Shown here in pieces: positions 528 to 14,421 of a stretch of 14,519 bases of DNA. Source of the DNA: a bacterium (GTDB lineage Bacteria; UBA9089; JASEGY01); assembly GCA_030019105.1 (NCBI GenBank), contig JASEGY010000043.1, forward strand, positions 1 through 14,519, given 5' to 3'. Every line of letters starts with the position of its first letter. The first letter of the stretch is position 1. The position numbers and the translations under genes are program-made. Under the pieces are notes generated by a model, which was not told the origin of the DNA, searched no databases, and saw only the letters and a list, made by a program, of their open reading frames with translations.

Positions 528-905
528 TTAGGCAGCCATTGCTTTTTCAGGTGTATCCAACTTTTTACCATACTTCTCACAAAAAAACCGAATACATTCA
601 GGCGCAATGTCAATCGTCTGCCCATCATACGCGCCGGTTTCGGGATTAGGCCAAACTAAAGCATAATCTCCTTCAACCAGGCGAAATCTTCCTTTGTTCT
701 TCAAAGACGAAAAGACACCCCCTGGACTTTCTTCCACAATCAAGGGATAAAAATCCAGTTCGTAAATGGATACGTCCAAATTTTCCTCAAACCATAAACG
801 CAGAATATAATCATTCACATATTCTGCTTTCAGTAATCCCTTTTCTTCTCGGTTTTGCCAGAGTGCTTCATTCCTGGCCAATTTATACCATTCTTCCCAC
901 TTCAT
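528..905 (-). CDS. DUF2442-like small protein
   Basis: A 125-residue soluble protein. The middle (about residues 24-110) follows the DUF2442 pattern: a strand around LKAEYVNDYILRLWFEE, then a phrase on position or profile (YELDFYPLIVEE), GGVFSSLKNKGRFRLV, and the closing VWPN...DIAPE motif, which is the best-known signature of that family. The N-terminal 20 residues (MKWEEWYKLARNEALW) and the tail KKLDTPEKAMAA are extensions. The start is the ATG at 905, preceded by GGGGTGA at a good spacing. DUF2442 proteins are common next to toxin-antitoxin-like small genes, but no biochemical function is established. No partner gene is adjacent here. The neighbour upstream is the hexosaminidase? No: that gene lies on the other side, ending at 978, with its 3' end facing this gene's 5' end across a 72-base gap, so the two could be co-transcribed. 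Confidence 0.75.
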   Translation of the reverse strand: MKWEEWYKLARNEALWQNREEKGLLKAEYVNDYILRLWFEENLDVSIYELDFYPLIVEESPGGVFSSLKNKGRFRLVEGDYALVWPNPETGAYDGQTIDIAPECIRFFCEKYGKKLDTPEKAMAA

Positions 906-977: not shown

Positions 978-2705
978 TTACACTCTAACCGGTAACTGAC
1001 CGCCAGGACTGAATTTTCCGAAGATCACTTCCAGCGCAGCCTGCAAAGAAAAAGGGTGAGGCCAGTAGGTGGCTAAATAAGTGCCTGCGGCGGGAAAGGA
1101 AGCCAGATCGTAGGGGTCACGAGCAGCTACAACTATCAAGGGCTTCTTTAGGGCTAAAATACCCCTGACTAATTGCGCCTGTTCAGGATACTGGTGGGCA
1201 TTGCAAGTAATAAAAATAGTCACCCCGGCCTTCCTGGCCAGAGAGATTACCTGATGGATTGCGGATTGCGCACCCACTTCGTGGGTACCCGGGATTGCGG
1301 ATTGCGGATTTGCGCTTTCATCTTTTCCAGGTCGGATGTCAACTACCACTGTTCGGATTTCGGATTTCATATTCCGCAATCCGCAATCCGCAATCCGCAA
1401 TCCGCAATCCGCAATCGGCACCTCTCGGGTGTCTTCTACCCTGGTGAGCGGGGTCTGGGTCGTGCTGACAATCAGCACAGATTGAGTTAGCTCTGCCTTG
1501 AGAGGGATAAGCTTCTGATCGTCTTTAACCAGGGTGACAGCATCCCGCATCATATTGCGGATTGCGGATTTCGGATTTCGGATTGTTTTGACTTCAGGCC
1601 TTGCAATCCGCAATCCCGGGTACCCACGAAGTGGGTGCGCAATCCGCAATCGGTTGATCCGGTGGATGCTTTGATTAATCCGCTCTTCGGTTATCTCTTT
1701 CCTCTCTACGGCTATCCTGAAGGCTTCTAAAGCGGCTTTTTGCTTCTCCGGGCTGTGACAGATAAGGGCGATGTCTACGCCGGCCTTAACAGCCATCACC
1801 GCTGCCTCCGGCACACCAATTCCTGATTGGGGATTGCGGATTGCGGATTGCGGATTGTACCGATTGCGAGTTCCGGACATTACATTCCGCAATCCCCAAT
1901 CCCCAATCCCCAATCCCCAATTGGTTATTGCGCCCATCTCCAGATCGTCAGTAATAACTACTCCCTTAAACCCCATCTTTTTCCGAAGCAGATCAGTAAT
2001 AATTTTGGAAGATAAGGTAGCCGGCCTGGTTGGATCAAGGGCCGTAAAGACAGCGTGAGAGGTCATAACCAGGCCAACCCCAGCCGTTATTGCCTCTCTG
2101 AAAGGGTAGAGTTCTATCTCTTCTAATCTTTCAATAGAGCCGGATACGGTCGGTAATTCTAAGTGGGAATCAAGAGAGGCTTCACCTTTACCCGGGAAAT
2201 GCTTAGCGGTAGCAGAAATCCCCTGGCTCTGCATTCCTTTGATCAGAGCTGCGCCTAACTTAGCGGCCAGTACAGGGTCATGGCCAAAGGAGCGAACTCC
2301 TAAAGGGCTTTTAGGATTAGTGGCCAGATCAAGCACCGGCGCTAAATTAATGTCTATTCCCAGGGATGAAAGTTCAGTTCCGGCTATTTGCCCTGTTTGA
2401 TAAGCATATTGAGCAGACCTGGTTGCCCCGAGGGCCATATTTGAGGGCAGGGGAGTCACTTCATCTTTAAATCGAGTGACTACTCCCCCTTCGTGGTCGA
2501 TAGCAATAAGAGGAGGCGGGACATTTGCGGAGGCAGCTACAGCTTTAAGCCTGGCGCAAAGCTGTCTTACCTGTTCGGCTGAGACTATGTTTCGAGCAAA
2601 AAGGATCACCCCCCCCAGGTGATCCCTTTTAATCATTTGTTCTATTTCTTTGGTCGGTGCTTCTCCCTCAAAGCCGACCATAAGCATTTGACCAATCTGG
2701 TTCAT
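978..2705 (-). CDS. nagZ: Glycoside hydrolase family 3 beta-N-acetylhexosaminidase with in-frame repeat insertions
   Basis: A 575-residue GH3 enzyme expected to remove terminal beta-N-acetylglucosamine, as NagZ does in peptidoglycan recycling. Visible motifs: IDHEGGVVTRF (69-79, usually DQEGG), KHFPGKGEASLDSHLELP (168-185) with the Asp179/His181 general acid-base dyad, and VITDDLEMGAI (250-260), where Asp253 should be the nucleophile. A C-terminal alpha/beta domain follows, ending SPGGQLPVRV. No signal peptide is seen, so it is probably cytoplasmic. Three blocks (about residues 261-298, 351-385 and 428-483) are translations of heptanucleotide repeats, giving peptides such as AIRNPQS and ADCGLRI. 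Family alignment resumes cleanly after each, so they are insertions that kept frame. The ATG at 2705 matches the family N-terminus but lacks a Shine-Dalgarno sequence. Family assignment is firm; the symbol nagZ is by motif, and activity with the insertions is untested. Confidence 0.9.
   Translation of the reverse strand: MNQIGQMLMVGFEGEAPTKEIEQMIKRDHLGGVILFARNIVSAEQVRQLCARLKAVAASANVPPPLIAIDHEGGVVTRFKDEVTPLPSNMALGATRSAQYAYQTGQIAGTELSSLGIDINLAPVLDLATNPKSPLGVRSFGHDPVLAAKLGAALIKGMQSQGISATAKHFPGKGEASLDSHLELPTVSGSIERLEEIELYPFREAITAGVGLVMTSHAVFTALDPTRPATLSSKIITDLLRKKMGFKGVVITDDLEMGAITNWGLGIGDWGLRNVMSGTRNRYNPQSAIRNPQSGIGVPEAAVMAVKAGVDIALICHSPEKQKAALEAFRIAVERKEITEERINQSIHRINRLRIAHPLRGYPGLRIARPEVKTIRNPKSAIRNMMRDAVTLVKDDQKLIPLKAELTQSVLIVSTTQTPLTRVEDTREVPIADCGLRIADCGLRNMKSEIRTVVVDIRPGKDESANPQSAIPGTHEVGAQSAIHQVISLARKAGVTIFITCNAHQYPEQAQLVRGILALKKPLIVVAARDPYDLASFPAAGTYLATYWPHPFSLQAALEVIFGKFSPGGQLPVRV
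1257..1417. repeat. Heptamer foldback insertion 3 in the hexosaminidase gene
   Basis: ATTGCGG units run at 1257-1312, interrupted by the palindromic module CGCACCCACTTCGTGGGT. Degenerate units (ttcggat) follow at 1352-1368. At 1372-1417 the same heptamer runs in the opposite orientation as ATCCGCA, over six units. The block is open in the gene's frame and encodes residues about 428-483. Residues about 451-463 (TVVVDIRPGKDE) look like native protein, so this may be two insertions flanking a short native stretch. Confidence 0.85.
1553..1651. repeat. Heptamer foldback insertion 2 in the hexosaminidase gene
   Basis: ATTGCGG and TTTCGGA units at 1553-1585 face inverted ATCCGCA units at 1603-1651, again with the ACCCACGAAGTGGGT palindrome embedded. 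It encodes residues about 351-385, in the linker between the catalytic domain and the C-terminal domain. Bases 1603-1651 are an exact 49-base inverted copy of 1257-1305. Confidence 0.85.
1815..1924. repeat. Heptamer foldback insertion 1 in the hexosaminidase gene
   Basis: The left arm at 1815-1856 (CCAATT... followed by ATTGGGG and ATTGCGG units) and the right arm at 1887-1924 (CCGCAAT followed by four CCCCAAT units and TGG) are inverted, so the block can fold into a hairpin around a core of about 30 bases. It encodes residues about 261-298, directly after the DDLEMGAI nucleophile motif and before PEAAVMAVKAG. Confidence 0.85.
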
Positions 2706-2752: not shown

Positions 2753-2832
2753 AACGTTGCTCACTTCTTTCAAACAGCGCAATGAATTTCCGTCAGTTCC
2801 AATGCCAAATTAGGCGTGCTTTCGATGTACTG

Positions 2833-3102
2833 TCACATCTGTTTTAGCAGCCACTCGTATTTGTCATGGTTACCAATCCAAAACCAGGTAACCGTATCGC
2901 CAAGTAGCAACCCCAATGCACGATAGTAATCTCCGATACGAATGGAGCAGACAGGTCGCCTGCGACCAACGCGTTTAAAATTCAAACTTGCTGCATCAGG
3001 ATGCTGCTGCCAGATTCGATACGACTTGCTTGCCTGGCGTCGAACATGCTTGGGTAACTGGTAATACAGTTTCCAAAACTGCGGCAGGGTTTGCGAGTTC
3101 AT
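2833..3102 (-). CDS. RelE/ParE-superfamily toxin-like protein
   Basis: An 89-residue basic protein with the compact RelE/ParE fold signature. An N-terminal helical half (FWKLYYQLPKHVRRQASKSYRIWQQHP, residues 9-35) precedes a beta half: LNFKRVG (40-46), CSIRIGDYYRALG (52-64), then VTWFWIGNHDKYEWLL (71-86). The SIRIGDYYRALG and WIGxHxxY elements are typical of ParE/RelE-like toxins, which either cleave mRNA on the ribosome or inhibit gyrase; the sequence does not say which. Its ATG overlaps the stop of the upstream gene (ATGA at 3099-3102), so the two are translationally coupled with the presumed antitoxin first. The stop is TGA; the same frame stays open for 19 further codons. The family call is good, the target unknown. 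Confidence 0.8.
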   Translation of the reverse strand: MNSQTLPQFWKLYYQLPKHVRRQASKSYRIWQQHPDAASLNFKRVGRRRPVCSIRIGDYYRALGLLLGDTVTWFWIGNHDKYEWLLKQM

Positions 3103-3425
3103 CCGGGCGTAATTTCTCCCTCTTCAGTGAAAACCATCGGCCTGGCACGTCCAGCTTGAATGTCTGCTAAAGCTTCGTCAGCCATCTTCTCAAGCAAGCG
3201 TTGAGATTTGTCGGTTGCCAGTAGTGTGTCCCATCGAGCATTTTCTGCCGCGACTTCTTCTTCGCTCGCATCCTTGTCTATCAAATCATCGTCGTAGGTT
3301 TTGGTTGTCTGGAACTCAATGAACTGAGCAAAATCAATCACTTGCGCCACACGCTCAGGCGGTAGCCTACGTACAATTCCACTAAGTTTCTGTTCGTATT
3401 CCTTAGTCTGAAAAATTGTCTTCAT
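3099..3425 (-). CDS. Putative antitoxin partner of the RelE/ParE-like toxin
   Basis: A 108-residue acidic, mostly helical protein. The segment LPPERVAQVIDFAQFIE (about residues 21-37) resembles the start of DUF2281-like or short antitoxin proteins. The C-terminal half is charged (DDDLIDKDASEEEVAAENARW, about 45-64), ending EEGEITPG. No ribbon-helix-helix or classical HTH is evident, so DNA binding is not shown. It is called an antitoxin from its position immediately upstream of, and 4-base overlap with, the toxin-like gene. An ACTCCTC/GAGGAGT inverted repeat at 3440-3467 lies just upstream of the start and could be an autoregulatory operator, although it coincides with the CGCAGAG repeat family. 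It is longer than many antitoxins of this class, which often have about 70-90 residues. Confidence 0.65.
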   Translation of the reverse strand: MKTIFQTKEYEQKLSGIVRRLPPERVAQVIDFAQFIEFQTTKTYDDDLIDKDASEEEVAAENARWDTLLATDKSQRLLEKMADEALADIQAGRARPMVFTEEGEITPG

Positions 3426-3482: not shown

Positions 3483-3866
3483 TCAAACAGGCAAAGGAAC
3501 CTCCACCTTTAATTGTTCCTTCATTTTCTGCACCTCCGGGCTCAAAAGCTGAAGGACAACATTGCCGGTCAGGGAAGCCACTATGGTAAAAAGATTAGTG
3601 ATAAAATGTTCAAACCCGGCTTTGATATCCTCAAAACTTTCGTTGGCACAATGGGTCTTAAGTTTATCCATATTCATACCCGTCGGCAATATCTCTATCT
3701 CTTGCAGAAAGCGGTATTCTAAACCCGTTTCATGTAGGGCCGTTTCCATCAGGCTGCTGATAGTGACTTCGCCAATTATAGCGGTTGCCTTAGACCAAAT
3801 AGAGTCAATTATACCTTCATAGAGAGAAATGAGATCTTTTTTATCTATTTTCATTTCATCAATCAT
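3483..3866 (-). CDS. Hypothetical small helical protein
   Basis: I do not recognise this protein. From the ATG at 3866 it has 127 residues, with no signal peptide or clear transmembrane helix. It is predicted mostly helical: an amphipathic N-terminal half (DLISLYEGIIDSIWSKATAI, residues 12-31), then the segment around EYRFLQEIEILPTGMNMDKL, and a hydrophobic stretch HFITNLFTIVASLTGNVVLQ (about 87-106) that could be a buried helix or a dimer interface. The frame is open upstream to 4007, but those 47 codons translate the CGCAGAG/ACGCAAAGG repeats (giving VLCVLCVN), so I exclude them. The Shine-Dalgarno sequence is weak, and the ATG at 3854 is an alternative start. It lies downstream of the OmpA-like gene across 162 bases of repeats. 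Confidence 0.6.
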   Translation of the reverse strand: MIDEMKIDKKDLISLYEGIIDSIWSKATAIIGEVTISSLMETALHETGLEYRFLQEIEILPTGMNMDKLKTHCANESFEDIKAGFEHFITNLFTIVASLTGNVVLQLLSPEVQKMKEQLKVEVPLPV

Positions 3867-4028
3867 AATAGGTTTCGACCTGTGTAAACGGAATTCACCA
3901 TGGAGACACGAAAGTACGGAGAAAAGTATAGCTGTATCAATCAATAGGTTAACGCAAAGGACGCAAAGGACGTAATGGTTAAATGTTCTTAGCAGGCATC
4001 TCTGCATCCTTAAGCTCTTTGCTCTGCG
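3867..4028. repeat. Repeat-filled gap between OmpA-like gene and small protein
   Basis: Contains TTCACCATGGAGACACGAAA at 3893-3912, ACGCAAAGG repeated about twice at 3954-3972, and CTTTGCTCTGCGC around 4016-4028. All are variants of the dispersed CGCAGAG/CGCAAAG family. No gene or terminator is supported here. Confidence 0.55.
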
Positions 4029-5444
4029 CTATTTCATTGGATGAATCTCTACTCGCCTGTTTTTAGCCTTGCCTAAAGGAGTGACGTTAGTTGTTACCGG
4101 TTCTTCCTCACCGTGAGCAGCGATTTCTTTAATCCGGGTAAGACTAATACCTTTATTTATCAAATACTGTTTTACTGTCTCCACTCTCCGCCTGGAGAGG
4201 TCCAGATTGTACTCATTGCTGGCATCACTGTCGGTATGTCCGCTGAGACCCACCTTTAAATCCGGCTCTTCTTTTAGTATCTTAACATTTTTATCCAGCG
4301 CAGCCTTAGCTTCTTCAGAAAGATCGGCTTGATTTACTGCAAAGTAAACCCATTCCAGACACGAAGTTATTATCTTTACGGGTTCAGCCGGGGTTACCAC
4401 TCTGGGTTCAACCGGGGCTGTTTTTCTGGGTTCAACCGGGGCTATTTCCCTGGGTTCAACCGGGGCTATTTCCCTGGGTTGAACCGGGGTTACCTTTCTG
4501 GATTTTACCGGCACCTCATCCGGGATCCCATCTTCGTCCAGATAGCCGTTAAAGGTTTCCGGTTCATTAGGGGCGCCATCTCGCACATCCGGGATGCCAT
4601 CGCCATCATTATCAGGATCAGGGCATCCATCTTCATCTTGAAAATTATCCAGGTCCTCACTGGTGTTTTCTCCTTTTGCCACTGTTTCATCCGTTCCCGG
4701 ACACTCATCTCTAACATCCGGGACACCGTCATCATCGTTGTCGTAATCAGGCGCGCCATCTTCATCCTCGAAATCATCAAAATCTTCAGGATTATCCGGA
4801 TCAGCATCAAAGCGGTCTTCTATTCCATCGCCATCTCTATCCTTTATGGGTGAATAGTAAGTCAATCCAGCCCGGGCAACGTAGTACCCATCATTATTGT
4901 CTTTTTCCGAAAGCCGGTCAAGCAAACCACTGGTCGTAAAACAATACCCACCTTCCAGAGTAAACATAAGGTCAGGTTTAACCTGGTATTCTATTCCCAG
5001 CCCTACCGGAATAATAACCGTTCCGGGACGATCACCGGATGGCTTTCGAAGATCCATGTCAGCGTGTTTGGGATCGAATACAACCGCCCCAAATCCGCCA
5101 AATAAATAAGGAGACAATACATCTTCCCTGGCGAATCTATACTTGGTTACTACATCCAGAGACCTTAGTTGGCCTTCAAAGGACTTAGATTTCTCCTCAG
5201 CCTTCAGTTCTCCCAGGCTAAACATGCCACGGAGAGAAAAAGGTGAATCAGCCCACCGGTATTCCAGATGGACACCACCACCAGGGGTGATCTTCGGGTC
5301 TTCAACTTCGCCCCTGTATCGGTTAAGGCCGAGGTTAATCCCTAATCCTAATCTATCTTTCTCAATTTCTTCCTCAGCCTGGGAAAGACAAGGGAGAGAG
5401 AAAAAGATGCTAAGGCCCAGCAGAACAACTACAAATTTCTTCAT
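4029..5444 (-). CDS. OmpA-family outer-membrane protein with thrombospondin type 3-like calcium-binding repeats
   Basis: A 471-residue exported protein. The start is the ATG at 5444, with a strong GAGGAGGGT site, followed by a signal peptide MKKFVVVLLGLSIFFSLPCLSQA (about 1-23). The longer open frame to 5534 translates AT-rich heptamer repeats and is not used. Residues about 30-198 look like an eight-stranded beta-barrel (alternating LGLGINLGL, YVARAGLTYY). Residues 201-310 carry Asp-rich DxDxDGxxD repeats typical of thrombospondin type 3 calcium-binding segments. Residues 317-356 are a Pro-rich linker of five REIAPVEP-like octapeptides. The OmpA C-terminal domain is at about 365-471, with SGHTDSDASNEYN and LSRRR; Asp405 and Arg420 fit the pair that binds diaminopimelate in peptidoglycan. 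It should tie the outer membrane to the wall. As the last gene of the kinase/phosphatase locus, it may be the envelope component of that pathway. Confidence 0.92.
   Translation of the reverse strand: MKKFVVVLLGLSIFFSLPCLSQAEEEIEKDRLGLGINLGLNRYRGEVEDPKITPGGGVHLEYRWADSPFSLRGMFSLGELKAEEKSKSFEGQLRSLDVVTKYRFAREDVLSPYLFGGFGAVVFDPKHADMDLRKPSGDRPGTVIIPVGLGIEYQVKPDLMFTLEGGYCFTTSGLLDRLSEKDNNDGYYVARAGLTYYSPIKDRDGDGIEDRFDADPDNPEDFDDFEDEDGAPDYDNDDDGVPDVRDECPGTDETVAKGENTSEDLDNFQDEDGCPDPDNDGDGIPDVRDGAPNEPETFNGYLDEDGIPDEVPVKSRKVTPVQPREIAPVEPREIAPVEPRKTAPVEPRVVTPAEPVKIITSCLEWVYFAVNQADLSEEAKAALDKNVKILKEEPDLKVGLSGHTDSDASNEYNLDLSRRRVETVKQYLINKGISLTRIKEIAAHGEEEPVTTNVTPLGKAKNRRVEIHPMK
4380..4499 (-). repeat. 24-bp minisatellite encoding the Pro-rich linker
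   Basis: Five adjacent 24-base units beginning GGGTTCAACCGGGG (starting at 4380, 4404, 4428, 4452 and 4476) encode the REIAPVEP octapeptides. Units 3 and 4 are identical, which suggests recent copy-number change. The repeat lies between the calcium-binding segment and the peptidoglycan-binding domain, so copy number would set the reach across the periplasm. Confidence 0.9.
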
Positions 5445-5450
5445 GATGTT

Positions 5451-5459
5451 ACCCTCCTC
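5451..5459 (-). promoter_or_regulatory. Shine-Dalgarno site fixing the OmpA-like start
   Basis: GAGGAGGGT lies six bases before the ATG at 5444 and directly precedes a textbook signal peptide. This decides against the longer open frame, which begins inside repeats. Confidence 0.85.
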
Positions 5460-5473
5460 GTATAAGTTTTTTG

Positions 5474-5748
5474 GTAGACGTTCACGGCTTGAAATTAGAA
5501 AGTAGAAATTAGAAATTGGGAATTGGGCCTTCATACTTTCTACTTTCTAATTTCCAATTTCGAGCCGTAAACGGCTACCTACTTTCCACAAGATATTGAG
5601 CAGTTACATTGGGTATTGTAGTTGCAGAGCTTGCTCTGCCGTAATGTCGAGCAAGCTCGACCACTACAAAATTGATCCAATGGCCCAAACGATGAACAAC
5701 GCCTAATTTCCAATTTCTAATTTCTAATTTCAAGCCGTGAACGCTTAC
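5474..5748. repeat. Composite inverted-repeat element between the phosphatase and OmpA-like genes
   Basis: The whole 306-base gap is repeat-derived. GTAGACGTTCACGGCTTG at 5474-5491 and its inverted copy CAAGCCGTGAACGCTTAC at 5731-5748 form the ends. Inside each end are 7-base AAATTAG units (5491-5516 and 5704-5730). A nested foldback spans 5474-5578, with its inner end the perfect palindrome AGCCGTAAACGGCT at 5563-5576. An 87-base REPIN-like element is at 5617-5703. TGAGCAGTTAC at 5598-5608 matches the border motif of the next gap. The right end begins three bases after the phosphatase stop codon. Confidence 0.85.
5617..5703. repeat. REPIN-like 87-bp element, copy 1
   Basis: Two short palindromes, GCAGAGCTTGCTCTGC (5623-5638) and TCGAGCAAGCTCGA (5647-5660), face each other across a 7-8 base spacer. 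Each is preceded by GTAG when read from its own outer side, and the TTGTAGT/ACTACAA ends can pair. A GTAG tetranucleotide 5' of a REP hairpin is the hallmark of RAYT-mobilised REP sequences. The copy extends through TTGATCCAATGGCCC to 5703 and matches 11523-11609 at 86 of 87 bases. Confidence 0.75.
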
Positions 5749-5750
5749 CG

Positions 5751-7322
5751 TTATTTCACCTCTATATTCTTTTCTGCCTCATAAAGGGTAAACTCTATTT
5801 TTCTAAAAAACCCTTTCTTTTCCAGGGCAAGAGTATGCACTCCTTTGGGGACAGCTATAGCTGACTGATAAGGGCTTAAATATCCCAGATCATGGTCGTC
5901 AATTATTATCTTAGCTCCGACAGCCTGCCTGGCTGTCTTCGGATCAGGAAAAATAAGATTGATCTTAGCCTCAGAGATAAGCTTATTTTCTATCTGCTTC
6001 TCCTGACCGGCCAGAACAGAAAAATGCTGCTCGCGCGAGGTTCGATAACCGAATTTAGTAAATTTAACCGTGTATTTCCCCGGCTTAATCCGATACTTCG
6101 TTAAAGGGGTCAGTTCCTTAAGACCCTTCCCATCCAAAAAGATATTAGCTTCAGAAGGAACAGTAGTTAAAGTAAGAAAGCCATCAGAAACAGTTACTTC
6201 TCTCCCCTTTTGAGGTTGAGGTGGAATTTGTTCCGTTTCAGTGGGCTGGCGAGCAACTAAATATATCCCTCCTCCTAAAAGGCCCAGGACAAAGATAGCA
6301 ATGATTAAGTATAATTCCTTCTTGATCGGTTTGCTTTCTTTAGCCTTTTGCCTGGGGGATTTATCTTCGCCGGAAACCTTTATTTTCTCTTTTCCGTAGA
6401 CCCTTTTTAAGACTTTATCTTCTTCAGCGAGGACCTGCTCATCCTCTTTACCAATTACCTGGATAATAGGATTGGGCAGGTATTCTTCCTTTGGAACCTT
6501 AGAGACCTTGAAAGTGACAACCGTAATATTATCCGGGCCCCCGCTATCATTGGCCGCCTTAACCAAATCACGACAAGCCGTACCCAAACTATCATCCGAT
6601 CTATTTAAGACATCTCTTATTTGTTCATCAGGTATCTGTCCGGCCAGGCCATCAGTGCATAGAAGGAAAAGGTCTCCTGATTCTACATTCTCGATCCTCA
6701 GGTCAACTTTCACATTTCCTGTTATACCAAGGGCCCTGGTAATAACATTTTTGTATTTGAAATTGGCGGCCTCTTCTTCTGATATTTCCTTATCTTCTAA
6801 CAGTTCGTTAACCCACGAGTGATCCTCCGTCAATTGTTCCAGGTTGCCCGCTCTCAATCGATAGACCCGGGAATCACCAACGTGGCAAATATAGATCAGA
6901 TTGGCTTCAAAGATGGCTGCGACTATGGTTGTGCCCATCCCGGCCAATTTGGGCTGGGCAACCGCCATATTATAGACCCTGCGGTTGGCCAATCTAACGG
7001 CCTTAACCAGATCAAGGGCCTTCTCCGGAAGGTCCTTGCCCAAAACCAGATCAGTTACTTTAACCGTTTCAAACTGATAAAGGTCTTCAGAAAGGAGAAG
7101 AAGGTTTTGTATCTGGATGAGAGAATAATTAGCTTCATAAGGCGACTGGATAAAATCCCTGACAGTTTCAATGGCAAGTTGAGAGGCTATCCTCCCCCCG
7201 GCGTGGCCACCCATGCCATCGGCCACCAGAAATAGGTTCTGTTCATCAAAGATACTATAAGCATCTTCGTTTACCTCTCGCTTCAGCCCCTTATCTGTCT
7301 GGGCACCAATTATTATCTCCAT
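5751..7322 (-). CDS. Membrane PP2C-family Ser/Thr phosphatase with PEGA-like C-terminal domains
   Basis: A 523-residue protein. Residues 1-273 form a PP2C (PrpC/Stp-type) domain expected to remove phosphate from Ser/Thr in a Mn/Mg-dependent way: KREVNEDA (14-21, metal Asp20), VADGMGGHAGG (33-43, Asp35), GMGTTIVA (128-135), HVGDSRVYR (147-155), CTDGL (222-226, Asp224) and GGPDNITVV (261-269, Asp264). All metal ligands are present, so it should be active. Residues about 61-105 are longer than usual for bacterial PP2C. A basic linker leads to one membrane helix (ELYLIIAIFVLGLLGGGIYL, about 336-355). Outside lie a PEGA domain (382-445) and a second PEGA-like domain (452-520). This mirrors the kinase in the same locus and suggests the two act on shared substrates and sense related envelope ligands. 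The ATG is well placed with GAGGG upstream. Confidence 0.93.
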   Translation of the reverse strand: MEIIIGAQTDKGLKREVNEDAYSIFDEQNLFLVADGMGGHAGGRIASQLAIETVRDFIQSPYEANYSLIQIQNLLLLSEDLYQFETVKVTDLVLGKDLPEKALDLVKAVRLANRRVYNMAVAQPKLAGMGTTIVAAIFEANLIYICHVGDSRVYRLRAGNLEQLTEDHSWVNELLEDKEISEEEAANFKYKNVITRALGITGNVKVDLRIENVESGDLFLLCTDGLAGQIPDEQIRDVLNRSDDSLGTACRDLVKAANDSGGPDNITVVTFKVSKVPKEEYLPNPIIQVIGKEDEQVLAEEDKVLKRVYGKEKIKVSGEDKSPRQKAKESKPIKKELYLIIAIFVLGLLGGGIYLVARQPTETEQIPPQPQKGREVTVSDGFLTLTTVPSEANIFLDGKGLKELTPLTKYRIKPGKYTVKFTKFGYRTSREQHFSVLAGQEKQIENKLISEAKINLIFPDPKTARQAVGAKIIIDDHDLGYLSPYQSAIAVPKGVHTLALEKKGFFRKIEFTLYEAEKNIEVK

Positions 7323-7340
7323 CTAATATAAAGCCCTCAC

Positions 7341-7510
7341 GTAACTACTCAGGTTCACAGTTCCAGGGTTCACGGTTCAAGGTTAGAGAGCAATGAAGAT
7401 TGGATATTGAGGTCTGGCATCTGGCATGCTAATTGACTCGGAAAGCATACTATCCCAGGAACGCAAGGCGACTAACCGTGAACCGTGAACCGTTGAACCT
7501 GAGCAGTTAC
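7341..7510. repeat. Foldback element between FHA and phosphatase genes (GGTTCAC heptamers)
   Basis: The left arm at 7341-7386 (GTAACTACTCAGGTTCA, then GGTTCAC-type units) and the right arm at 7472-7510 (ending TGAACCTGAGCAGTTAC) are inverted copies over about 40 bases. The core includes a doublet TCTGGCATCTGGCAT at 7413-7427. The right end starts four bases after the FHA-gene stop; the left end is 18 bases from the phosphatase ATG, so the element fills the 192-base gap. No separate gene is present. Confidence 0.85.
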
Positions 7511-7514
7511 GCCC

Positions 7515-9791
7515 TTACAGGCTGGCTACCCGCATTTTTTCTCTTCTGCTCACGTAGAACTTAACCAGAACAATAGTTGCTGCTTCCAGCAGTAAGGCGA
7601 CAAGGATCATCAGCCAATACCGGATAGTAGCAACCTTAAAAGAATATTGCCCGCTATGCTCTCCCGTTCGTTGAAGCATACCCCAATCGATTTTGTTATC
7701 AAAAACCCTCGTATTAGTTGACAGGGTATAAAACCTATTGTCATCGGTGCCAAAAATAAGGTTAAGATACCCATCACCATCTATGTCACCAATAGCTGAT
7801 GAAGAGGTGATAGGAGCGTTAAAGGCATAAACCTTTCCCCATTCTATCTTCTGGGAAGCCTTAGCTTCACTTTTCCATAAGAGTTGGCGTTTGGTTTCAG
7901 TTTTTTCTCCATTAAAGATATAGAGCCTTCCGTCTTCTGCTCCAATAACAACATCCAGGATGCCGTCTTTATCCAGGTCCGAGAGCGCTGGTGAAGCAAC
8001 TATCCTATTATCCTCTCCGGTCGAATAAGACCACAAAACCTTAGCCTTGCCTCTATCTCCTTTTCCATTAAAAGCCATCACCTGACCATTAAATGAGCCG
8101 ACGACTACATCCATCAGGCCATCATTATCTAAGTCAGCCATAACCGGCGAAGAATGTCTGAGGGGCGGCTCCTTTATAGTCGGGGGTTCAATCAGGTAGT
8201 GCCAGAGGAGCTTGCGGGATTTACCATTAATCATTATCACATAGTAGGCATTGGTGACCACCGCTATGTCGGCTATGCCGTCTCCATCCACATCACCTAC
8301 GGCCGGCACTCCCGTAATCTCGTTTAGAATAAGTTGAATCCCTAAACTCATGTTAAGCATCTCAGTAAGATTTACCGCCTCTGTTGTTTCTTTAATAGGA
8401 TCAATAATATAAATCTTACCGTCATGTGTCCCGACAATAATCTCCGGCCAACCGTCTTCATCTACGTTGGCTATTACCGGAGAACCCAGTACCTTGCTTC
8501 CGATAGAAGTGCGATATAGATCCTGGCGGGTCTTAGACAATCTGAAATATATTGTCCCGTCATCCTCTTCAGAAGCCACGACTATATCCAATCGCCCATC
8601 CATATCTATATCTCCTATCGCCGGGCTGCATCCGGCCACACCACTCAAAATATCACTCTTTTCAATTAGTTTGCCTGTATAGCCATCGATCACATAAAAC
8701 CTGGAACGGTTGGAACAGACCACTACATCCGGTTTACCATCAAGGTTTATGTCACCAAGGGCCGGAGAAGAAATGATCTCCGTGCCCAGTTGAAGCGGTT
8801 CCCATATCCTGGTTCCACTTTTACCATCCCAGGCATAGAGAAATCCATCCTTTGCACCAACCACCACATCTACTGTTCCATCCCCATTCAAATCACCTAA
8901 GGCCGGAGAAGATGTTATTTCCAGAACGGCCCCCCGGTAAAGGGCGACTTGCTTTTCCAAACCCTCCTTTTGTTGAGGTGTCCACGAACTTCGTCCCAGG
9001 GTTAAGGGGTCCGGCTGCTGGCCCAGGATTATAATGGCCTGCAAACCGGAGATGCCATAAATAATTCCGGCTAACATAATCAGGATAATAGCCAACTTTC
9101 TGGCCGGAGATTTTATCCTGACCCAGATAGTGCCGGCCACCCGTGGAGGGGAATAATCTTCCATCCCTTCCTGACAGAAACGAAAGATATTCTGACCAAT
9201 CTGGATCTCATCATTCTGGTTCAAAATTACTTCCTGGGATTCATCAATTTCACTTCCGTTAACAAAACTTCGATTTCGGCTCCTTCTATCAGTAAAGATA
9301 TATTCATTGTTTTGGAAAGTTATTTGAGCATGCCGCCTGGAGGTAGAAGCATCGTTTAAGACAATATCATTTAATTCCCGATTTCGTCCCAGCCTGGTCG
9401 GCTCCGTCTTTTTTAGTTCTATCCGTTGAATCTCTCTCTGGCCATAGATACCAACCAAATTAAAAAAGACTTCCGGCTCCTTAGTTGAAGCTTCTTCAGA
9501 TCGAGTGGGTCTAAAGACAATAGTATAGTTTCCAATACCAACTTCGTCCCTTAGATTGAGCCGGCGTGTGGTCTCTATCTTTTCGCCGTTAACCGTAACT
9601 CCATAAGCGCTTCTTAGATCTTCGACCACAAATATACCATGCTCTCGCCTTATTTGAGCATGCGCCATAGAAACACTCTTATCCATTAACACTAAGTCAT
9701 TGGCATCATTTCGACCAATACTTAAGACATCTTTATCTAAGATCTTCTCACGAACAATTTCTGCTTTTTGTTTAACGACGATCTTTGGCAC
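7515..9791 (-). CDS. Membrane protein with two FHA domains and an FG-GAP beta-propeller
   Basis: A 758-residue protein with an unusual fusion. Two FHA domains, which bind phosphothreonine peptides, occupy about residues 1-95 (GR at 26-27, His44, NG at 68-69) and 110-206 (GR at 135-136, SRRH at 151-154, NG at 178-179). The second has the full GR...SxxH...NG set; the first has SMAH in place of SRxH. A membrane helix (LAIILIMLAGIIYGISGL, about 233-250) follows. Residues 290-690 carry eight DxDxDG-type FG-GAP/VCBS calcium loops, for example DLNGDGTVD, DIDMDGRLD and DIDGDGYLN, consistent with a seven- or eight-bladed propeller. A second helix (YWLMILVALLLEAATIVLV, 725-743) ends in a basic tail. 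Predicted topology is FHA in the cytoplasm and propeller in the periplasm. The start is GTG at 9791, preceded by AAGGAGAGGT. It is likely the phospho-reader of the kinase/phosphatase pair. Confidence 0.92.
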   Translation of the reverse strand: MPKIVVKQKAEIVREKILDKDVLSIGRNDANDLVLMDKSVSMAHAQIRREHGIFVVEDLRSAYGVTVNGEKIETTRRLNLRDEVGIGNYTIVFRPTRSEEASTKEPEVFFNLVGIYGQREIQRIELKKTEPTRLGRNRELNDIVLNDASTSRRHAQITFQNNEYIFTDRRSRNRSFVNGSEIDESQEVILNQNDEIQIGQNIFRFCQEGMEDYSPPRVAGTIWVRIKSPARKLAIILIMLAGIIYGISGLQAIIILGQQPDPLTLGRSSWTPQQKEGLEKQVALYRGAVLEITSSPALGDLNGDGTVDVVVGAKDGFLYAWDGKSGTRIWEPLQLGTEIISSPALGDINLDGKPDVVVCSNRSRFYVIDGYTGKLIEKSDILSGVAGCSPAIGDIDMDGRLDIVVASEEDDGTIYFRLSKTRQDLYRTSIGSKVLGSPVIANVDEDGWPEIIVGTHDGKIYIIDPIKETTEAVNLTEMLNMSLGIQLILNEITGVPAVGDVDGDGIADIAVVTNAYYVIMINGKSRKLLWHYLIEPPTIKEPPLRHSSPVMADLDNDGLMDVVVGSFNGQVMAFNGKGDRGKAKVLWSYSTGEDNRIVASPALSDLDKDGILDVVIGAEDGRLYIFNGEKTETKRQLLWKSEAKASQKIEWGKVYAFNAPITSSSAIGDIDGDGYLNLIFGTDDNRFYTLSTNTRVFDNKIDWGMLQRTGEHSGQYSFKVATIRYWLMILVALLLEAATIVLVKFYVSRREKMRVASL

Positions 9792-9810
9792 CCTTTTTTC
9801 ACCTCTCCTT

Positions 9811-10007
9811 CATTCAGAATTCAGAATTCTGGGATGGTTCACCTTACTGTGAAAGCTTGCGGCTAAAAATTATCATTAACTTTCCGGAGTTAATCCTTTA
9901 GGATTTCATTAGTTATGAAAGGCTAAAGCCTAAACTCCAGAAAGAACGCAAGGTTTCACAAGAAAATGGACGATTTTTGAACCGTCCCAGAATTCTGAAT
10001 TCAGAAG
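9811..10007. repeat. Nested foldback (MITE-like) element upstream of the FHA gene
   Basis: Terminal inverted repeats at 9813-9841 and 9978-10006 share GAATTCAGAATTCTGGGA, then (T/C)GGTTCA. Further inward, GTGAAAGCTTGCG (9849-9861) pairs with CGCAAGGTTTCAC (9947-9959). In the centre, GGAGTT...TTTAGGATTTC (9886-9906) pairs with GAAAGGCTAAAG...AACTCC (9917-9938) around a perfect TTTCAT/ATGAAA hairpin at 9904-9920. No open reading frame of note is inside, so it would be non-autonomous if mobile. Confidence 0.85.
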
Positions 10008-10021
10008 TTAGAAGTTGTCTT

Positions 10022-10091
10022 ACTTCTTACTTCTGAATTCTCACTTCTTACTTCTGAATTCTCACTTCTTACTTCTCACTTCTCACTTCTG
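10022..10091. repeat. Ten-unit ACTTCTN heptamer array
   Basis: Ten perfectly phased 7-base units: ACTTCTT, ACTTCTG, AATTCTC, then the same three again, then ACTTCTT, ACTTCTC, ACTTCTC, ACTTCTG. The array stops three bases short of the coiled-coil gene's stop codon at 10095-10097. Together with the adjoining foldback it fills the 303-base gap between the two genes. Confidence 0.9.
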
Positions 10092-10094
10092 AAG

Positions 10095-11630
10095 TTATTG
10101 AGCGAGCAATATAGCTGCAAAAGCAGCCACTAAGCCGAGATAGGAAACGACTTCACTCCTCTTGAGCCGGCGGCTAAGCTGAGAATACTCTTCACCCTCA
10201 GGTCTGCTAATGTCCCCACGTGGAGTTTTGGCAATCATTCGATCAATCTCATCTCTGGTAACTATACTTTTTCGCAAATTACGCACCTCACGTTGAATCA
10301 TATCCAGGCCGACTTCCAGTTCAGGGCTTCCGCCTAAATAGGTCTCTCCACCTGTTCCCCTGCTTTTTTCTAATGTTTCTACCCGGGTAGAAAGTCCGTA
10401 GAGTGTCCCTTCTAACCAGGATTTATCTATATCTCCCCCGCTGGATTTACCTTGCTTCTCGATCTTAGAAAGCTGGTATTCAATATCTTTCATTTCCTTT
10501 TTTATTTCGTCTTTGACCAGCGAAGGGATCTTTTCTTCTACGCTGCGCATTATCTTATCATAATCAATGGATACTTCCTTTCCACCAGCAGATACAGGCT
10601 GCTTCTCGATTTTAGAAAGCCGGTATTCCACATCCCCCATTCCCTTTTTCATTTCATCTTTGACCAGCGAAGGGATCTTTCCTTCCACGCCGCGCATTAT
10701 CTTATCATAATCAATGGATACTTCCTTTCCACCGGCAGATACAGGCTGCTTCTCGATTTTAGAAAGCCGGTATTCCACATCCCTCATTCCCGTTTTCATT
10801 TCATCTTTGACCAGCGAAGGGATCTTTCCTTCTACGCCGCGCATTATCTTATCGTAATCAATGGATACTCCTCCCGTCCCTTTTGTTTCCATGTCATCCA
10901 ATCTTGAGGCAAGCCTCTGGAGGTTGGCTTCTATTCTGGACATATCCGTCACCGAAGCCCCGCCGCCACCACCAGACGGCCTCCTCTCTAAGGAATCCAG
11001 CTTGCGTTTAAGCCAATCTATTTCCTGTTCCGTCACCTTAGACATTGTGGGGGAATTAATGATCAACTGAGGCAGAAGATATTCGACCTCCTTTATCACC
11101 TCGTCGACATTACCCCCTTTTCCTCCTGTCGTTCCTGCTGTGGAAGGCATCTTTTTGAGTTGGCGATCAAGACTATTTACGGTCCCTTCTAAAGTCGACA
11201 CCTTCTCTGAAAGGAAACGATTCTGAGTTTCCAGCCATCTTCTAAACTGGTCATATTCATAAAAGGCCTGGATAAGGTCCTGTCTGGTTACATTCTGGTA
11301 AGGTTGAAACTTAGGGCCGCGGAATTTGCCAATAAAGTTCTTCATAAGGTCCCACAGGCTGTTAATAGCCTCCTGAGTCTCTTTCGATACATCTTCATAT
11401 TCCTGGGCACCACTTGAAACAGGAGCAAATAGCAGCACGCAGATTAACATTGCTACAAATCTAATCTTGTTACGGCCTTGTTCATCTTTTCGGCCAATAG
11501 CGCTTGACCAAACTTGTTTCGATGTAGTTGCAGAGCTTGCTCTGCCGTAATGTCGAGCAAGCTCGACCACTACAAAATTGATCCAATGGCCCAAACAATG
11601 AACAACGCCCTTGTTACCTTTCCTGGACAT
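10095..11630 (-). CDS. Coiled-coil membrane-anchored protein with 49-residue tandem repeats
   Basis: I do not recognise a named family. Counted from the ATG at 11630 (GGAG seven bases upstream, overlapping the kinase 3' end) it has 511 residues. Residues about 1-38 are encoded largely by an 87-base repeat. A basic-then-hydrophobic segment RNKIRFVAMLICVLLFAPVSSGAQ (about 53-76, quoted as RNKIRF plus AMLICVLLFAPVSSGA) looks like a signal peptide. The body is highly charged, Gly-spaced coiled coil, with three near-identical 49-residue units (255-401) beginning VSIDYDKIMR. The end is a hydrophobic helix (VVSYLGLVAAFAAILLAQ, 494-511). The likely product is a periplasmic coiled coil held by its C-terminus. 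Start choice is uncertain: GTG at 11648 and ATG at 11450 are alternatives. Position between kinase and FHA genes suggests a scaffold or spanning component. Confidence 0.8.
   Translation of the reverse strand: MSRKGNKGVVHCLGHWINFVVVELARHYGRASSATTSKQVWSSAIGRKDEQGRNKIRFVAMLICVLLFAPVSSGAQEYEDVSKETQEAINSLWDLMKNFIGKFRGPKFQPYQNVTRQDLIQAFYEYDQFRRWLETQNRFLSEKVSTLEGTVNSLDRQLKKMPSTAGTTGGKGGNVDEVIKEVEYLLPQLIINSPTMSKVTEQEIDWLKRKLDSLERRPSGGGGGASVTDMSRIEANLQRLASRLDDMETKGTGGVSIDYDKIMRGVEGKIPSLVKDEMKTGMRDVEYRLSKIEKQPVSAGGKEVSIDYDKIMRGVEGKIPSLVKDEMKKGMGDVEYRLSKIEKQPVSAGGKEVSIDYDKIMRSVEEKIPSLVKDEIKKEMKDIEYQLSKIEKQGKSSGGDIDKSWLEGTLYGLSTRVETLEKSRGTGGETYLGGSPELEVGLDMIQREVRNLRKSIVTRDEIDRMIAKTPRGDISRPEGEEYSQLSRRLKRSEVVSYLGLVAAFAAILLAQ
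10428..10868 (-). repeat. Three tandem 147-bp units in the coiled-coil gene
   Basis: Units 10722-10868, 10575-10721 and 10428-10574 each encode 49 residues starting VSIDYDKIMR and centred on KIPSLVKDEM and LSKIEKQ. Units 1 and 2 are nearly identical at DNA level; unit 3 is more diverged. Forty-nine residues equals seven heptads, so each duplication could preserve coiled-coil register. Confidence 0.95.
11523..11609. repeat. REPIN-like 87-bp element, copy 2 (inside the coiled-coil reading frame)
   Basis: Identical to 5617-5703 except for one base (A at 11598 where copy 1 has G). Here it begins just after the kinase stop codon (on the - strand, TAACAAGG then the element) and is open in the coiled-coil protein's frame, translating to a segment around GVVHCLGHWINFVVVELARH. 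It therefore separates the kinase gene from the native start of the next gene. Confidence 0.8.
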
Positions 11631-14421
11631 TAACCGCTCCATCTTCACCGATAATCACGACAAAGGTCTGATTAGGACTCTCAATAGTAATCGTGGCGAC
11701 AGCATCTGCCAGGAATTGCGGATGTTTTACCACTATCCTATGCACACCCTGTGATACATCCCTGATTCTCTGTAATCCTTTTCCCTTAGACTGGCCATCC
11801 ATCCAGATTTCAGCATCATAATAATAAGGATCTACCGTAATATTCCCTGTTATAGCTGATTGTCCCAGATAGATATTCTTTGACCAGGTAAAATCTCCGC
11901 CTAAGCTCTCCCTGGAGATATCAGCCTCTACCGTAGCCGTCATATAACCTTCCCTGGTTACCTTAATTAGATAATGTCCCGTTCCTTCTATCGGGCCTTC
12001 CGATATCCCTTTATTGTCAGTTCGTCCAAAGTAACGGTCATTTTGCCAGATATATGCCTTTGCGACCGGTTTTTTGGTCTCTTCATCATAGACAGCGATC
12101 CGGATTCTGGGGGGCGGCAGGGCCAGAAAAGCCGCTACCCGGTTGTCCTGCTGCGTGTTGAACCTTACCTCTTTGGACTGATAAGGGGATTTCTCAAAGG
12201 TAAAGGTATGTTGTCCCGGTTGTAATGAGTAGCGCAAAATGGGCGTAGTGCCTATCTGTTTCCCTCCCAGGTAGACACTGGCCTTAATATCGTTGGCCTG
12301 ATTCTGACCGGTGGTCCCTTCCGGAAAGGCAAAAAAGTCCACAAACTTCTTTAATACAGTACTTATCGGTGGTATTTGAGCTGTGTCGACCACCAATTTT
12401 TTAGAATAGGATTCGAAATTAGGCAGTTTAATATCTATTTGATGTTCGCCGGCTTTAATCAGGAGGTCGGTCATAGGCGTTCGGCCTCTAACTTCATTAT
12501 CAACCAGGATATTGGCCCCGTCCGGATTAGATGTTACCGCAACGTATTTAAACATCTCTCCTTTTACGCGGTAAACCTCGAGGTTATTTTCTTCCTCCGG
12601 TTGGAAAGACCAGAACCTTCGATCCACCTCTGCCCCGCCCATCGGGTCCAGAGTATCAATAAGACATCCTTCTAACAACTCAAAGCCCCTGACTTCTAAT
12701 TTAATATCGTGCTTGCCGACATAAACCGACTGTCTTAACGGGGTCTTTTGGCCCACCTTTCGGTCATCTAAATAAACAGCCGCCCCTGGCGGATTAGACT
12801 CAATGATCAGATCACTCTCAAAGGTGAAGGCCAGCACATTTGCTCCTTCTTCAGTCACATCACCTTTTCCGCCCCCAGCCTCAATAGTTCCTTGCTTTCC
12901 TGTAATGGTAATGGTTCGGATAATGGGGGCAAACCCCTCTTTTTCCAATCGCAGCTCATAATTACCAGGTGAAATCTTTAGCACCTTGAGGGTAGGTTTA
13001 GCCACCCCGATTTTATCCCCGTCTAAAAAGATATTTGCCCCCGGCGGACTGGATTTAATAATTAATGCCGGCGGCCAAATAGTATCATAGACTGTTGTTC
13101 CCAGGGCTGTCCATTGGAAAAAAGTATCAACACATAAAAAGAGGATAAAGGTGGATAAGACCCCAATAAGAGAGCCGACTACCATCCGCTTGTACTTTTG
13201 AGCCGAGGATATCATCAGATCGAAGACGGTCTTTTCACCTTCTTCTGCCGGAGATGGCGCTGCAGGCTGGGGGGCCGGGGCTTCTCTTACAGGAGGAGGA
13301 GAAGGAGAAGGAGAAGGAAAAGGAGAAGGAGAAGGAGGAGCTTCAACCGGCGGCGCTCCCGCCCACGAAGTATCACTTGCCGACGCAGGTTGAACAGGCT
13401 TCACAGGCTTAACAGGTTGAACAGGTTGAACAACTTGACGGCTTGCTTCCTTTTTAAGCTGCTCTTCTTTTATTTCTTTAGAAAAGAGGTCATGCATAAA
13501 GGCCTGAAGATTCTCTTCCTTCAAGCTAAACCTGTTTTCAGCTATGAAAAGTTCCAGGTCATTATACATCTCCTGGGCATCTTTGTATCTTTTGGCTGAA
13601 TCACGCTGCAAGGCCTTGCTTAATATGGCCTTAAGCCTTTTAGGCGCCCCCAGTTTGTCTAAAGGAGAAAAATCTACTTTGGCGGCGATCACTTTTTGCA
13701 AGGTGGCGGCATCAGTATCGGCCCGAAAGAGTCTATCTCCGGTAAGAACCTCGTACATCACCGACCCTAAAGCAAAGACATCTGAGCGCGCATCAATCTC
13801 TTCTTCTTTCCCCTGTCCTTGCTCAGGCGACATATACGGAATTTTACCCTTAAGCGACCCTTTTTCTCCTTCTACCCTGGTAGAAGCTGCTTTGGCAATA
13901 CCAAAATCAGTTAGTTTGACCTTGCCTTCGTGATAGAGCATTATGTTACTGGGAGTTACATCTCTATGCACGATATTAAGGGGGCGATCGGTTGCTTCTT
14001 CCTTCTTTCGGTGGGCATAGGCCAACCCCCTGGCTACCTCTGTGATAATATAGGTGACTAATTCCAGCGGGAGGGTTGTTTTGGTTTCCTGACATTTATC
14101 CAGTATCTCTTTCAGGTTATTGCCATCTACATACTCCATAACAATATAAAAGGTATTATCGTCGGTCCTGAGAAAATCATAGGCCTGGACAATATTGCGA
14201 TGGTTAAGAATGGCCGTATGGACGGCCTCATCCCAGAACATATCCACAAATCGCGCATCTTCAGAATAAGTCTTCAGGATTTTCTTTAAAGCGACAATCC
14301 GTTTCAAAACCAAATCCTGGGCCTTAAAAACTTCAGCCAGACCACCAACCGCAATACGGTTCAGAATTTTATATCTCTTCCCTAAAACCTCGTACTGGTC
14401 CTCAAAAGTATTCTCTTGCAT
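11614..14421 (-). CDS. Membrane Ser/Thr protein kinase with multiple extracytoplasmic PEGA domains
   Basis: A 935-residue Hanks-type kinase. Kinase domain about 17-293: AVGGLAEVF (24-32, first Gly of the loop replaced by Ala), VALKK with Lys46, Glu65, HRDVTPSNIML (152-162, with Thr where many kinases have Lys), DFGIAKA (172-178) and PYMSPEQ (195-201). A Pro-rich linker (330-395) and a membrane helix (MVVGSLIGVLSTFILFLCV, 413-431) follow. Outside lie PEGA-type domains at about 451-508, 536-585, 625-682 and 711-765, a carboxypeptidase-regulatory-like segment (772-835) and a final PEGA-like unit (858-915). Asp154 and Asp172 are present, so catalysis is likely. PEGA domains are thought to contact wall or surface polymers. 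The ATG has AAAGG upstream. It is the first gene of the locus and overlaps the next reading frame, consistent with an operon with the FHA and PP2C genes. Confidence 0.95.
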   Translation of the reverse strand: MQENTFEDQYEVLGKRYKILNRIAVGGLAEVFKAQDLVLKRIVALKKILKTYSEDARFVDMFWDEAVHTAILNHRNIVQAYDFLRTDDNTFYIVMEYVDGNNLKEILDKCQETKTTLPLELVTYIITEVARGLAYAHRKKEEATDRPLNIVHRDVTPSNIMLYHEGKVKLTDFGIAKAASTRVEGEKGSLKGKIPYMSPEQGQGKEEEIDARSDVFALGSVMYEVLTGDRLFRADTDAATLQKVIAAKVDFSPLDKLGAPKRLKAILSKALQRDSAKRYKDAQEMYNDLELFIAENRFSLKEENLQAFMHDLFSKEIKEEQLKKEASRQVVQPVQPVKPVKPVQPASASDTSWAGAPPVEAPPSPSPFPSPSPSPPPVREAPAPQPAAPSPAEEGEKTVFDLMISSAQKYKRMVVGSLIGVLSTFILFLCVDTFFQWTALGTTVYDTIWPPALIIKSSPPGANIFLDGDKIGVAKPTLKVLKISPGNYELRLEKEGFAPIIRTITITGKQGTIEAGGGKGDVTEEGANVLAFTFESDLIIESNPPGAAVYLDDRKVGQKTPLRQSVYVGKHDIKLEVRGFELLEGCLIDTLDPMGGAEVDRRFWSFQPEEENNLEVYRVKGEMFKYVAVTSNPDGANILVDNEVRGRTPMTDLLIKAGEHQIDIKLPNFESYSKKLVVDTAQIPPISTVLKKFVDFFAFPEGTTGQNQANDIKASVYLGGKQIGTTPILRYSLQPGQHTFTFEKSPYQSKEVRFNTQQDNRVAAFLALPPPRIRIAVYDEETKKPVAKAYIWQNDRYFGRTDNKGISEGPIEGTGHYLIKVTREGYMTATVEADISRESLGGDFTWSKNIYLGQSAITGNITVDPYYYDAEIWMDGQSKGKGLQRIRDVSQGVHRIVVKHPQFLADAVATITIESPNQTFVVIIGEDGAVNVQER
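13291..13440 (-). repeat. Low-complexity tandem repeats coding the kinase Pro-rich linker
   Basis: A GGAGAA hexamer tract at 13291-13340 encodes the SPSPFPSPSPSP stretch, and about five 9-base AGGTTGAAC/AGGCTTCAC units at 13387-13431 encode QPV/KPV tripeptides. Both can change copy number without breaking frame, which would alter the distance between kinase and membrane. Confidence 0.85.

Follow-up and report, generated by a model that had tools for sequence, protein, structure and literature searches.

The best-known kinase/phosphatase/FHA circuits are those of actinobacteria and of type VI secretion systems (T6SS). The actinobacterial PknB-type cluster encodes a PASTA kinase and contains rodA and pbpA, and in the PknA/PknB-PstP-FhaA/FhaB system, as at the locus described here, a membrane-bound Hanks-type kinase, a PP2C phosphatase and FHA readers are encoded together. 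The T6SS threonine phosphorylation pathway (PpkA, PppA, Fha1, TagQRST) takes its inputs from outside and likewise combines a kinase and a phosphatase with an FHA reader. GltG and other FHA-transmembrane gliding proteins resemble the reader protein of the present locus in pairing FHA with a membrane helix, and we know of no propeller in the GltG family. For the outer-membrane tether Omp-alpha of Thermotoga (OmpA1), two papers give a layout of SLH domain, coil and C-terminal transmembrane helix (PMC9388160; PMC3387000).

The locus described here differs from each of these systems. Unlike the actinobacterial cluster, it has PEGA rather than PASTA domains on the outside, a PP2C protein with a PEGA region of its own, and an FHA protein with membrane helices of its own and a propeller. 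Unlike the T6SS pathway, it has no adjoining tss or tag genes, has an FHA-propeller architecture, and encodes an exported rod in place of TagQRS. Whereas the propellers of BamB, YxaL and integrin alpha are the nearest comparison for its propeller, the propeller here is fused through a membrane helix to two FHA domains. Its coiled-coil (CC) protein appears to be exported and, like Omp-alpha and the SlpA/OmpM tethers, to combine an SLH-like head with a coil that varies in length and a C-terminal helix. It differs from Omp-alpha in that its SLH match lies under the cut-off, that module copies in a second phylum (phylum B) have no C-terminal helix, and that it is linked to a kinase module, a linkage unmentioned for those tethers in the parts of PMC9388160 and PMC3387000 consulted. 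Among the matches listed from open-licence PMC full text, no title or abstract beginning describes the module.

Results

Gene content of the locus

The window, by which we mean the whole stretch of DNA analysed, is an entire contig of 14,519 bases from a draft genome of 4.34 Mb in 1053 contigs (Table 1). The initial annotation proposed that five co-oriented genes in this contig form a trans-envelope phosphosignalling locus, and all five ORFs are indeed present, on the minus strand. In the direction of transcription the order is kinase, CC, FHA protein, PP2C, barrel/OmpA, small gene, small ORF, GH3, small ORF, so that the same-direction run extends past OmpA by four further ORFs. Pfam matches and hydropathy agree that the writer (kinase), reader (FHA protein) and eraser (PP2C) each combine a membrane helix with a domain predicted to lie outside the cytoplasm; the kinase and the PP2C protein have one helix each, and the FHA protein, for which a single helix had been proposed, spans the membrane with two by hydropathy. 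Comparison with a same-genus genome (G001) gives dN/dS values of 0.13-0.18 for four of the genes and 0.32 for CC. Together, the Pfam and NCBIfam matches, the helices and the dN/dS values of the five ORFs place the locus far beyond chance.

Table 1. Features of the window (coordinates on the 14,519-base contig)
Feature	Positions	Strand	Remarks
Ser/Thr kinase, Hanks-type, membrane helix, four PEGA stretches	11614..14421	-	935 aa; Pfam, hydropathy
Coiled-coil (CC) ORF: signal-peptide-like segment, SLH-like domain, coil, C-terminal membrane helix	10095..11648	-	
Double FHA, membrane helix, eight-bladed FG-GAP propeller, membrane helix	7515..9791	-	758 aa
PP2C phosphatase, membrane helix, PEGA	5751..7322	-	523 aa
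Outer-membrane barrel, DxDxDG linker, OmpA protein	4029..5534	-	likely start 5444
Small protein, no assigned function	3483..4007	-	adjoins in G001 too, 68% over 109 aa
Small ORF	3099..3425	-	
GH3 beta-N-acetylhexosaminidase-like (NagZ/YbbD-like) gene	978..2705	-	adjoins in G001 too
Small ORF	528..905	-	
87-nt dispersed palindromic repeat, kinase/CC junction	11523..11609	-	second copy 5617-5703
Conserved SLH-like N-terminal domain of CC	11232..11402	-	ORF residues 83-139; alignments of 24 and 11 members
Three 147-nt direct tandem repeats, coiled-coil region	10453..10893	-	79-100% alike
C-terminal membrane helix of CC	10101..10157	-	hydropathy
FHA2, conserved phosphothreonine-binding site	9195..9398	-	R136, S151, H154, N178
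Eight-bladed FG-GAP propeller, predicted extracytoplasmic	7713..8930	-	

Some of the gene models require correction. The first ~60 codons of the CC ORF consist of the kinase 3' end read in another frame and a dispersed repeat (11470-11609), which places the start of the gene further 3', near the signal peptide; a segment resembling a signal peptide, just before residue 82, opens the conserved CC protein. The OmpA ORF is probably over-extended, with its likely start at the ATG at 5444, because the G001 OmpA protein starts at the equivalent of an internal MKK, and the ORF at 3483-4007 is probably over-extended as well. In the OmpA protein, Pfam matches the OmpA domain with 77.5 bits and an N-terminal beta-barrel with 41 bits. 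Rfam yields no match anywhere in the window. Terminator-like sites number 16 (shuffled mean 11.4, sd 3.6) and promoter-like sites 18 (17.6 in shuffled sequence); with counts this near the shuffled values, transcription as one transcript is neither supported nor excluded.

Conserved active sites of the kinase and phosphatase

The kinase matches Pfam Pkinase with 144 bits and PEGA with 179 bits in four stretches; K46, HRD and DFG are all present, and the membrane helix spans residues 413-431. In an alignment of 20 rows, counting at each position only the rows that cover it, the catalytic Lys (K46) and DFG are kept in 14 of 14 rows and the HRD Asp in 14 of 15. The PP2C protein matches PP2C_2 with 57 bits and PEGA with 43 bits, and scores 252.8 bits against the NCBIfam Stp1 model (NF033484; cut-off 230), which makes it an Stp1-type phosphatase. 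Its residues D20, D35, D150, D224 and D264 are kept in 28 of 28 sequences, and D10 in 22 of 28. Judged from these residues and the predicted topology, each of the two enzymes has its PEGA region across the membrane helix from an intact active site. The kinase is not a PASTA kinase by the NCBIfam model (NF033483 PknB_PASTA, 266 bits against a cut-off of 450), and neither the window nor the annotated genes of the 24-kb G001 contig include rodA or pbpA.

The FHA-propeller protein

The FHA protein matches Pfam FHA with 113 bits in two stretches and FG-GAP_3 with 134 bits in seven; it has eight DxDxDG-type motifs, and its two membrane helices flank the FG-GAP repeats. In the second FHA domain (FHA2), S151, H154 and N178 are invariant (28/28) and R136 is present in 26 of 28 sequences, the exceptions being the paralogues L189 and L192. 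In the first (FHA1), which resembles GarA in profile comparison, the binding Arg occurs in only 4 of 27 sequences: those of the window's genus and the same two paralogues. The conserved residues and helix positions thus predict that FHA2 is a canonical phosphothreonine reader placed before the first helix, with the propeller between the two helices. Models of described FHA proteins fit less well: TagH (TIGR03354) scores 72.4 bits, under its cut-off of 120.25, and GltG matches residues 7-95 only, with 34 bits against a cut-off of 650. An FHA-protein tree, from which two paralogues and a fragment were left out (L189, L190 and L192), groups G718, a genome of the third phylum, with phylum B and the window's genus at 100/100 support and carries a long-branch warning. 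Given the long branches, the FHA gene may have been transferred between phyla.

The coiled-coil protein

The initial annotation called the CC protein a repeat-rich coiled coil. The repeats are there, and alignment adds a conserved N-terminal domain and a conserved layout. Three weak Pfam matches, two of them to coiled-coil models, all lie under their cut-offs; the signal-peptide-like start, the coil and the C-terminal helix of the window protein are seen by hydropathy, repeats and alignment. The N-terminal domain of ~57 residues is common to 24 relatives, in which coil length varies and total length ranges from 214 to 689 aa. The domain is SLH-like by reading (DV...TR-D/E-L); Pfam SLH (PF00395) matches six of the 24 members at E <= 10, the best at 0.0056 and under the curated cut-off, and a CC profile searched against the PDB found no SLH structure. 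A C-terminal hydrophobic segment, usually ending in AR or AQ, is present in 19 of the 24. The module copies in all three phylum B genomes and at two third-phylum loci (L238, L241) have no C-terminal helix, and second CC copies in phylum B (L111, L112) do have one. The structure model of the CC protein is unusable (pLDDT 37.8).

Four of the five genes are conserved as a unit in three phyla

FHA-propeller proteins are carried by 2 of 19 genomes searched in the window's phylum, by 3 of 3 in phylum B and by 39 of 340 in a third phylum, where carriers were scored at a match of 1e-30 or better with at most three candidates per genome, and where four of the 39 (G640, G681, G700, G718) match in pieces only. 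FHA domains as such occur in 5 of the 19 genomes of the window's phylum, and the combination of FHA-propeller and CC occurs there only in the window genome and in G001. A CC search of 386 genomes found relatives outside the phylum in G134 and G271, and a weak one in G170 (5.5e-4); an FHA profile search of 386 genomes, with two candidates scored per genome, matched the FHA-propeller protein over its full length in six genomes, two of them (G217, G348) from the third phylum and the other four already known. A contig scan with the single window FHA protein as query gave no match. The same scan with a four-row profile gave 25 loci, three of which (L123-L125) contain the whole or the beginning of the FHA-propeller protein, and the other 22 of which match within the first 252 query residues, the FHA part. 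In phylum B (loci taken as records JAUVLC010000041.1, JAGLHV010000026.1 and JAGLYT010000046.1), CC, FHA-propeller (41% over the whole length) and PP2C-PEGA (36-37%) are adjacent in G134 and G271, and in G134 the kinase adjoins too; in two phylum B genomes the contig ends inside an ORF that matches the N-terminus of the G134 kinase with 58 and 69% identity.

We read 27 neighbourhoods, two from the window's phylum, three from phylum B and 22 from the 39 third-phylum carriers, assigning gene families by blastp clustering with Pfam run on representatives only. In every one of the 27, the gene immediately downstream of FHA is PP2C. Directly upstream lies CC in 23 of 27, and the kinase instead in the other four (G217, G348, G648, G639); since these four genomes keep kinase, FHA and PP2C without CC, the rod is not required. 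A kinase is found in all 22 neighbourhoods with room for it, in 20 on the same strand within six genes and in two by an N-terminus at the contig end; the other five contigs end before the kinase position. The FHA and PP2C genes overlap by 4 nt at 20 of the 22 third-phylum loci, an arrangement suggestive of translational coupling. Besides the locus with CC, G134 carries a second triad of FHA-propeller, PP2C and kinase genes that lacks it.

In G001 the full order of kinase, CC, FHA, PP2C, OmpA, small gene and GH3 is kept. Its flanks on the 24-kb contig carry aminotransferase, SerA, MoxR and GGDEF genes in one direction and HtrA-like, ArgS, CBS-HTH and Rho genes in the other; none of the annotated genes of the contig is a T6SS gene, the TssC-family genes of this genome being on other contigs. 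These mostly housekeeping flanks bear out the view that the locus does not lie inside a secretion cluster. The initial annotation also counted OmpA as a fifth component. The OmpA and GH3 clusters are confined to the window and G001 among the 27 neighbourhoods (one third-phylum locus, L241 in G709, ends in a 171-codon OmpA-like ORF outside the OmpA cluster), and OmpA, as a family of the same genus only, was therefore dropped from the module definition. The expected adjacency in related genomes accordingly holds for kinase, CC, FHA-propeller and PP2C, which occur together in three phyla, and not for OmpA; within the window's own phylum it is limited to 2 of 19 genomes. Kinase/PP2C, FHA/PP2C or kinase/FHA neighbours without propeller or CC occur in G006, G009 and G018 of the window's phylum and in G235, so part of this adjacency is common. 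We conclude that kinase plus PEGA, CC, FHA-propeller and PP2C plus PEGA form a four-gene module conserved as a unit beyond the window genome, and that the module is real, apparently old, and built from known kinds of domain.

Additional families join the module in other phyla

At third-phylum loci the module is accompanied by further families. A receiver-domain family, identified by its representative, is present at 19 of 22 loci; in G134 a receiver domain is fused to the kinase, so the receiver joins the system in two ways. Between kinase and CC lie two families, one PorV-like (15 of 22 loci) and one FlgD_ig-tailed (13 of 22). The FlgD_ig tail of the latter's representative scores 39.6 bits against a cut-off of 27. 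The PorV-like label comes from reading by eye and from a PF19572 match on the G134 copy (20.7 bits, under the cut-off of 27); the third-phylum representative has a sub-threshold barrel match only. The second CC copy of G134 adjoins the same two families.

Discussion

From sequence data the module itself can be taken as demonstrated, and a role for it in envelope control is plausible. According to the hypothesis that the module is a reversible Ser/Thr-phosphorylation switch linking cytoplasm, periplasm and an outer-membrane tether, to which we give an even chance, the kinase would write, FHA2 read and PP2C erase on the inside, and PEGA domains on writer and eraser, the propeller on the reader and the exported CC rod would act on the outside. 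The PEGA and propeller domains would contact the rod or peptidoglycan; a changed state of the tether or wall (rod, wall or outer membrane) would shift kinase against phosphatase activity; FHA2 would bind the phospho-threonine so formed, carried by the kinase or by some partner; and the FHA-propeller protein, recruited or released on binding, would adjust assembly of the tether or envelope. Binding by FHA2 would lock the reader in place, and PP2C would reset the switch. In the other phyla, two-component input may enter through a receiver domain, either as part of the kinase chain or from a gene next to PP2C. The inside half of this scheme follows well-known domain chemistry, and the outside half is what we infer from gene linkage. 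For the tether model count the conservation of the module, the kept active sites, the helices between the domains, the Omp-alpha-like layout of CC, and the adjacency of the CC family to the PorV-like and FlgD_ig-tailed families in the third phylum and in G134. Against it count the weak SLH match, the unusable CC model, the four genomes without CC, the neighbour pairs that occur without propeller or CC, the C-terminal helix missing from some CC copies, a PorV-like label that comes from one sub-threshold match and reading by eye, and gaps of 192-303 nt between the genes from CC to OmpA in the window, several of which contain repeats.

The same genes could serve other ends. Were the module to regulate cell-wall synthesis and division in the manner of PknA/PknB-PstP-FhaA/FhaB rather than a tether, one could point to the likeness of FHA1 to GarA, to a NagZ-like GH3 gene downstream in the window and in G001, to the HtrA-like protease of G001, and to third-phylum families that look by eye like ScpA and ScpB (upstream, 6 loci each) and like FtsX and EnvC (downstream, 14 and 11 loci); but the FtsX-like protein has no Pfam match at E <= 0.01, the M23 match of the EnvC-like protein is sub-threshold (28.2 against 28.7), there is no PASTA domain and neither rodA nor pbp on the G001 contig, and the flanks differ by phylum, with polysaccharide and SSB/S6 genes in phylum B and other housekeeping genes in G001. 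We consider such a role unlikely. Control in trans of a secretion machine, whether of T6SS type or a T9SS-like PorV/C-terminal-signal export, is also doubtful. Kinase/PP2C/FHA triads do control T6SS, the PorV-like and FlgD_ig-tailed families belong to the third-phylum cluster, and a search for T6SS genes in two genomes (G000 and G001) returned two TssC-family matches in G001 and a partial one in G000. Yet the Pfam-annotated neighbourhoods (G001, G134 and third-phylum L236) include no T6SS gene or SprA, tblastn finds no relative of the window kinase, FHA or PP2C protein on G001:C61 or on 14.7 kb of G001:C10 (39.7 kb), and the FHA protein falls short of the TagH cut-off. SprA_N (PF14349) is matched in 7 of 15 carriers and unmatched in 8, among the latter both G000 and G001, all counts being from draft genomes; with a match in only 7 of 15, a T9SS role as the general function was rejected.

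Two further explanations have little to recommend them. A kinase/phosphatase-type antiphage defence module is very improbable: the PADLOC matches of the kinase to the PD-T4-6 and mad6 models (25 listed of 33 families) all end, as far as listed, by residue 418, before the PEGA region, and are thus generic kinase-domain matches, and although PP2C matches PDC-M21C with 37.6 bits and the OmpA domain ZorB with 44.9 bits, neither FHA nor CC has a PADLOC match, the surrounding genes are of the housekeeping kind, and most third-phylum carriers show just one FHA-propeller match. That unrelated genes became neighbours by chance is more improbable still. That just 2 of the 19 genomes from the window's phylum have the locus might suggest it, but the same adjacency recurs in three phyla with different flanks and in two gene orders, with a second triad in G134, and the adjacency counts rule the explanation out.

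A phosphorylation switch coupled to an outer-membrane tether remains our preferred reading, and a more specific form of it, which we offer tentatively as improbable in its details, would make the FHA-propeller protein a two-way phospho-gated receptor in which phospho-threonine binding by FHA2 is coupled to a calcium-loop propeller that grips the SLH-like rod. If so, Ser/Thr phosphorylation would directly set the hold of the outer membrane on the wall in several little-known phyla, as a regulated counterpart of the Tol-Pal/OmpA/OmpM tethers. If the envelope link is real, the module offers a starting point for learning how attachment of the outer membrane is sensed and controlled in these bacteria. 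The module is in any case a further syntenically conserved form of kinase, phosphatase and FHA protein, from little-studied phyla, in which the reader spans the membrane, bears a propeller and is adjoined by a tether-like rod, and it can serve as a marker operon by which many genes of candidate phyla now labelled 'hypothetical' could be annotated.

Additional sequence observations

The two copies of the 87-nt element in the window are 99% identical, with two hairpin-like palindromes each, and up to 140 nt around the element recurs on at least six other contigs of the window genome; the element looks like a dispersed non-autonomous repeat that artificially extends ORFs. Short tandem and inverted repeats take up the junctions at 9792-10094 and 7323-7514, and 159 nt of the first junction are identical on contig C120. 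Within the GH3 coding sequence, repeats of heptamer type lie in frame at 1257-1930; they comprise CCGCAAT and inverted copies of it, among them one perfect inverted pair of 49 nt, and encode NPQSAIRN-like peptide segments at and past the domain boundary. Upstream of GH3, the stretch 2706-3098 resembles a decayed small gene by eye, and the two small ORFs, which match no Pfam or NCBIfam family, are possibly antitoxin-like, again by eye.

Elsewhere in the genus, TssC/VipB-family contractile sheath genes lie at L113 (G001:C61), L114 (G001:C10) and, in part, L117 (G000:C189), and G001 encodes a further FHA protein away from the module in a 615-codon frame (L115; G001:C39, ~3052-3378). Phylum B kinases have a Cys-rich N-terminus. 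The third-phylum kinases at L228 (3500-3550) and L194 (9540-9639) end in a C-terminal CxxC...CxxC zinc-ribbon-like tail, which would lie outside the membrane if the topology is simple.
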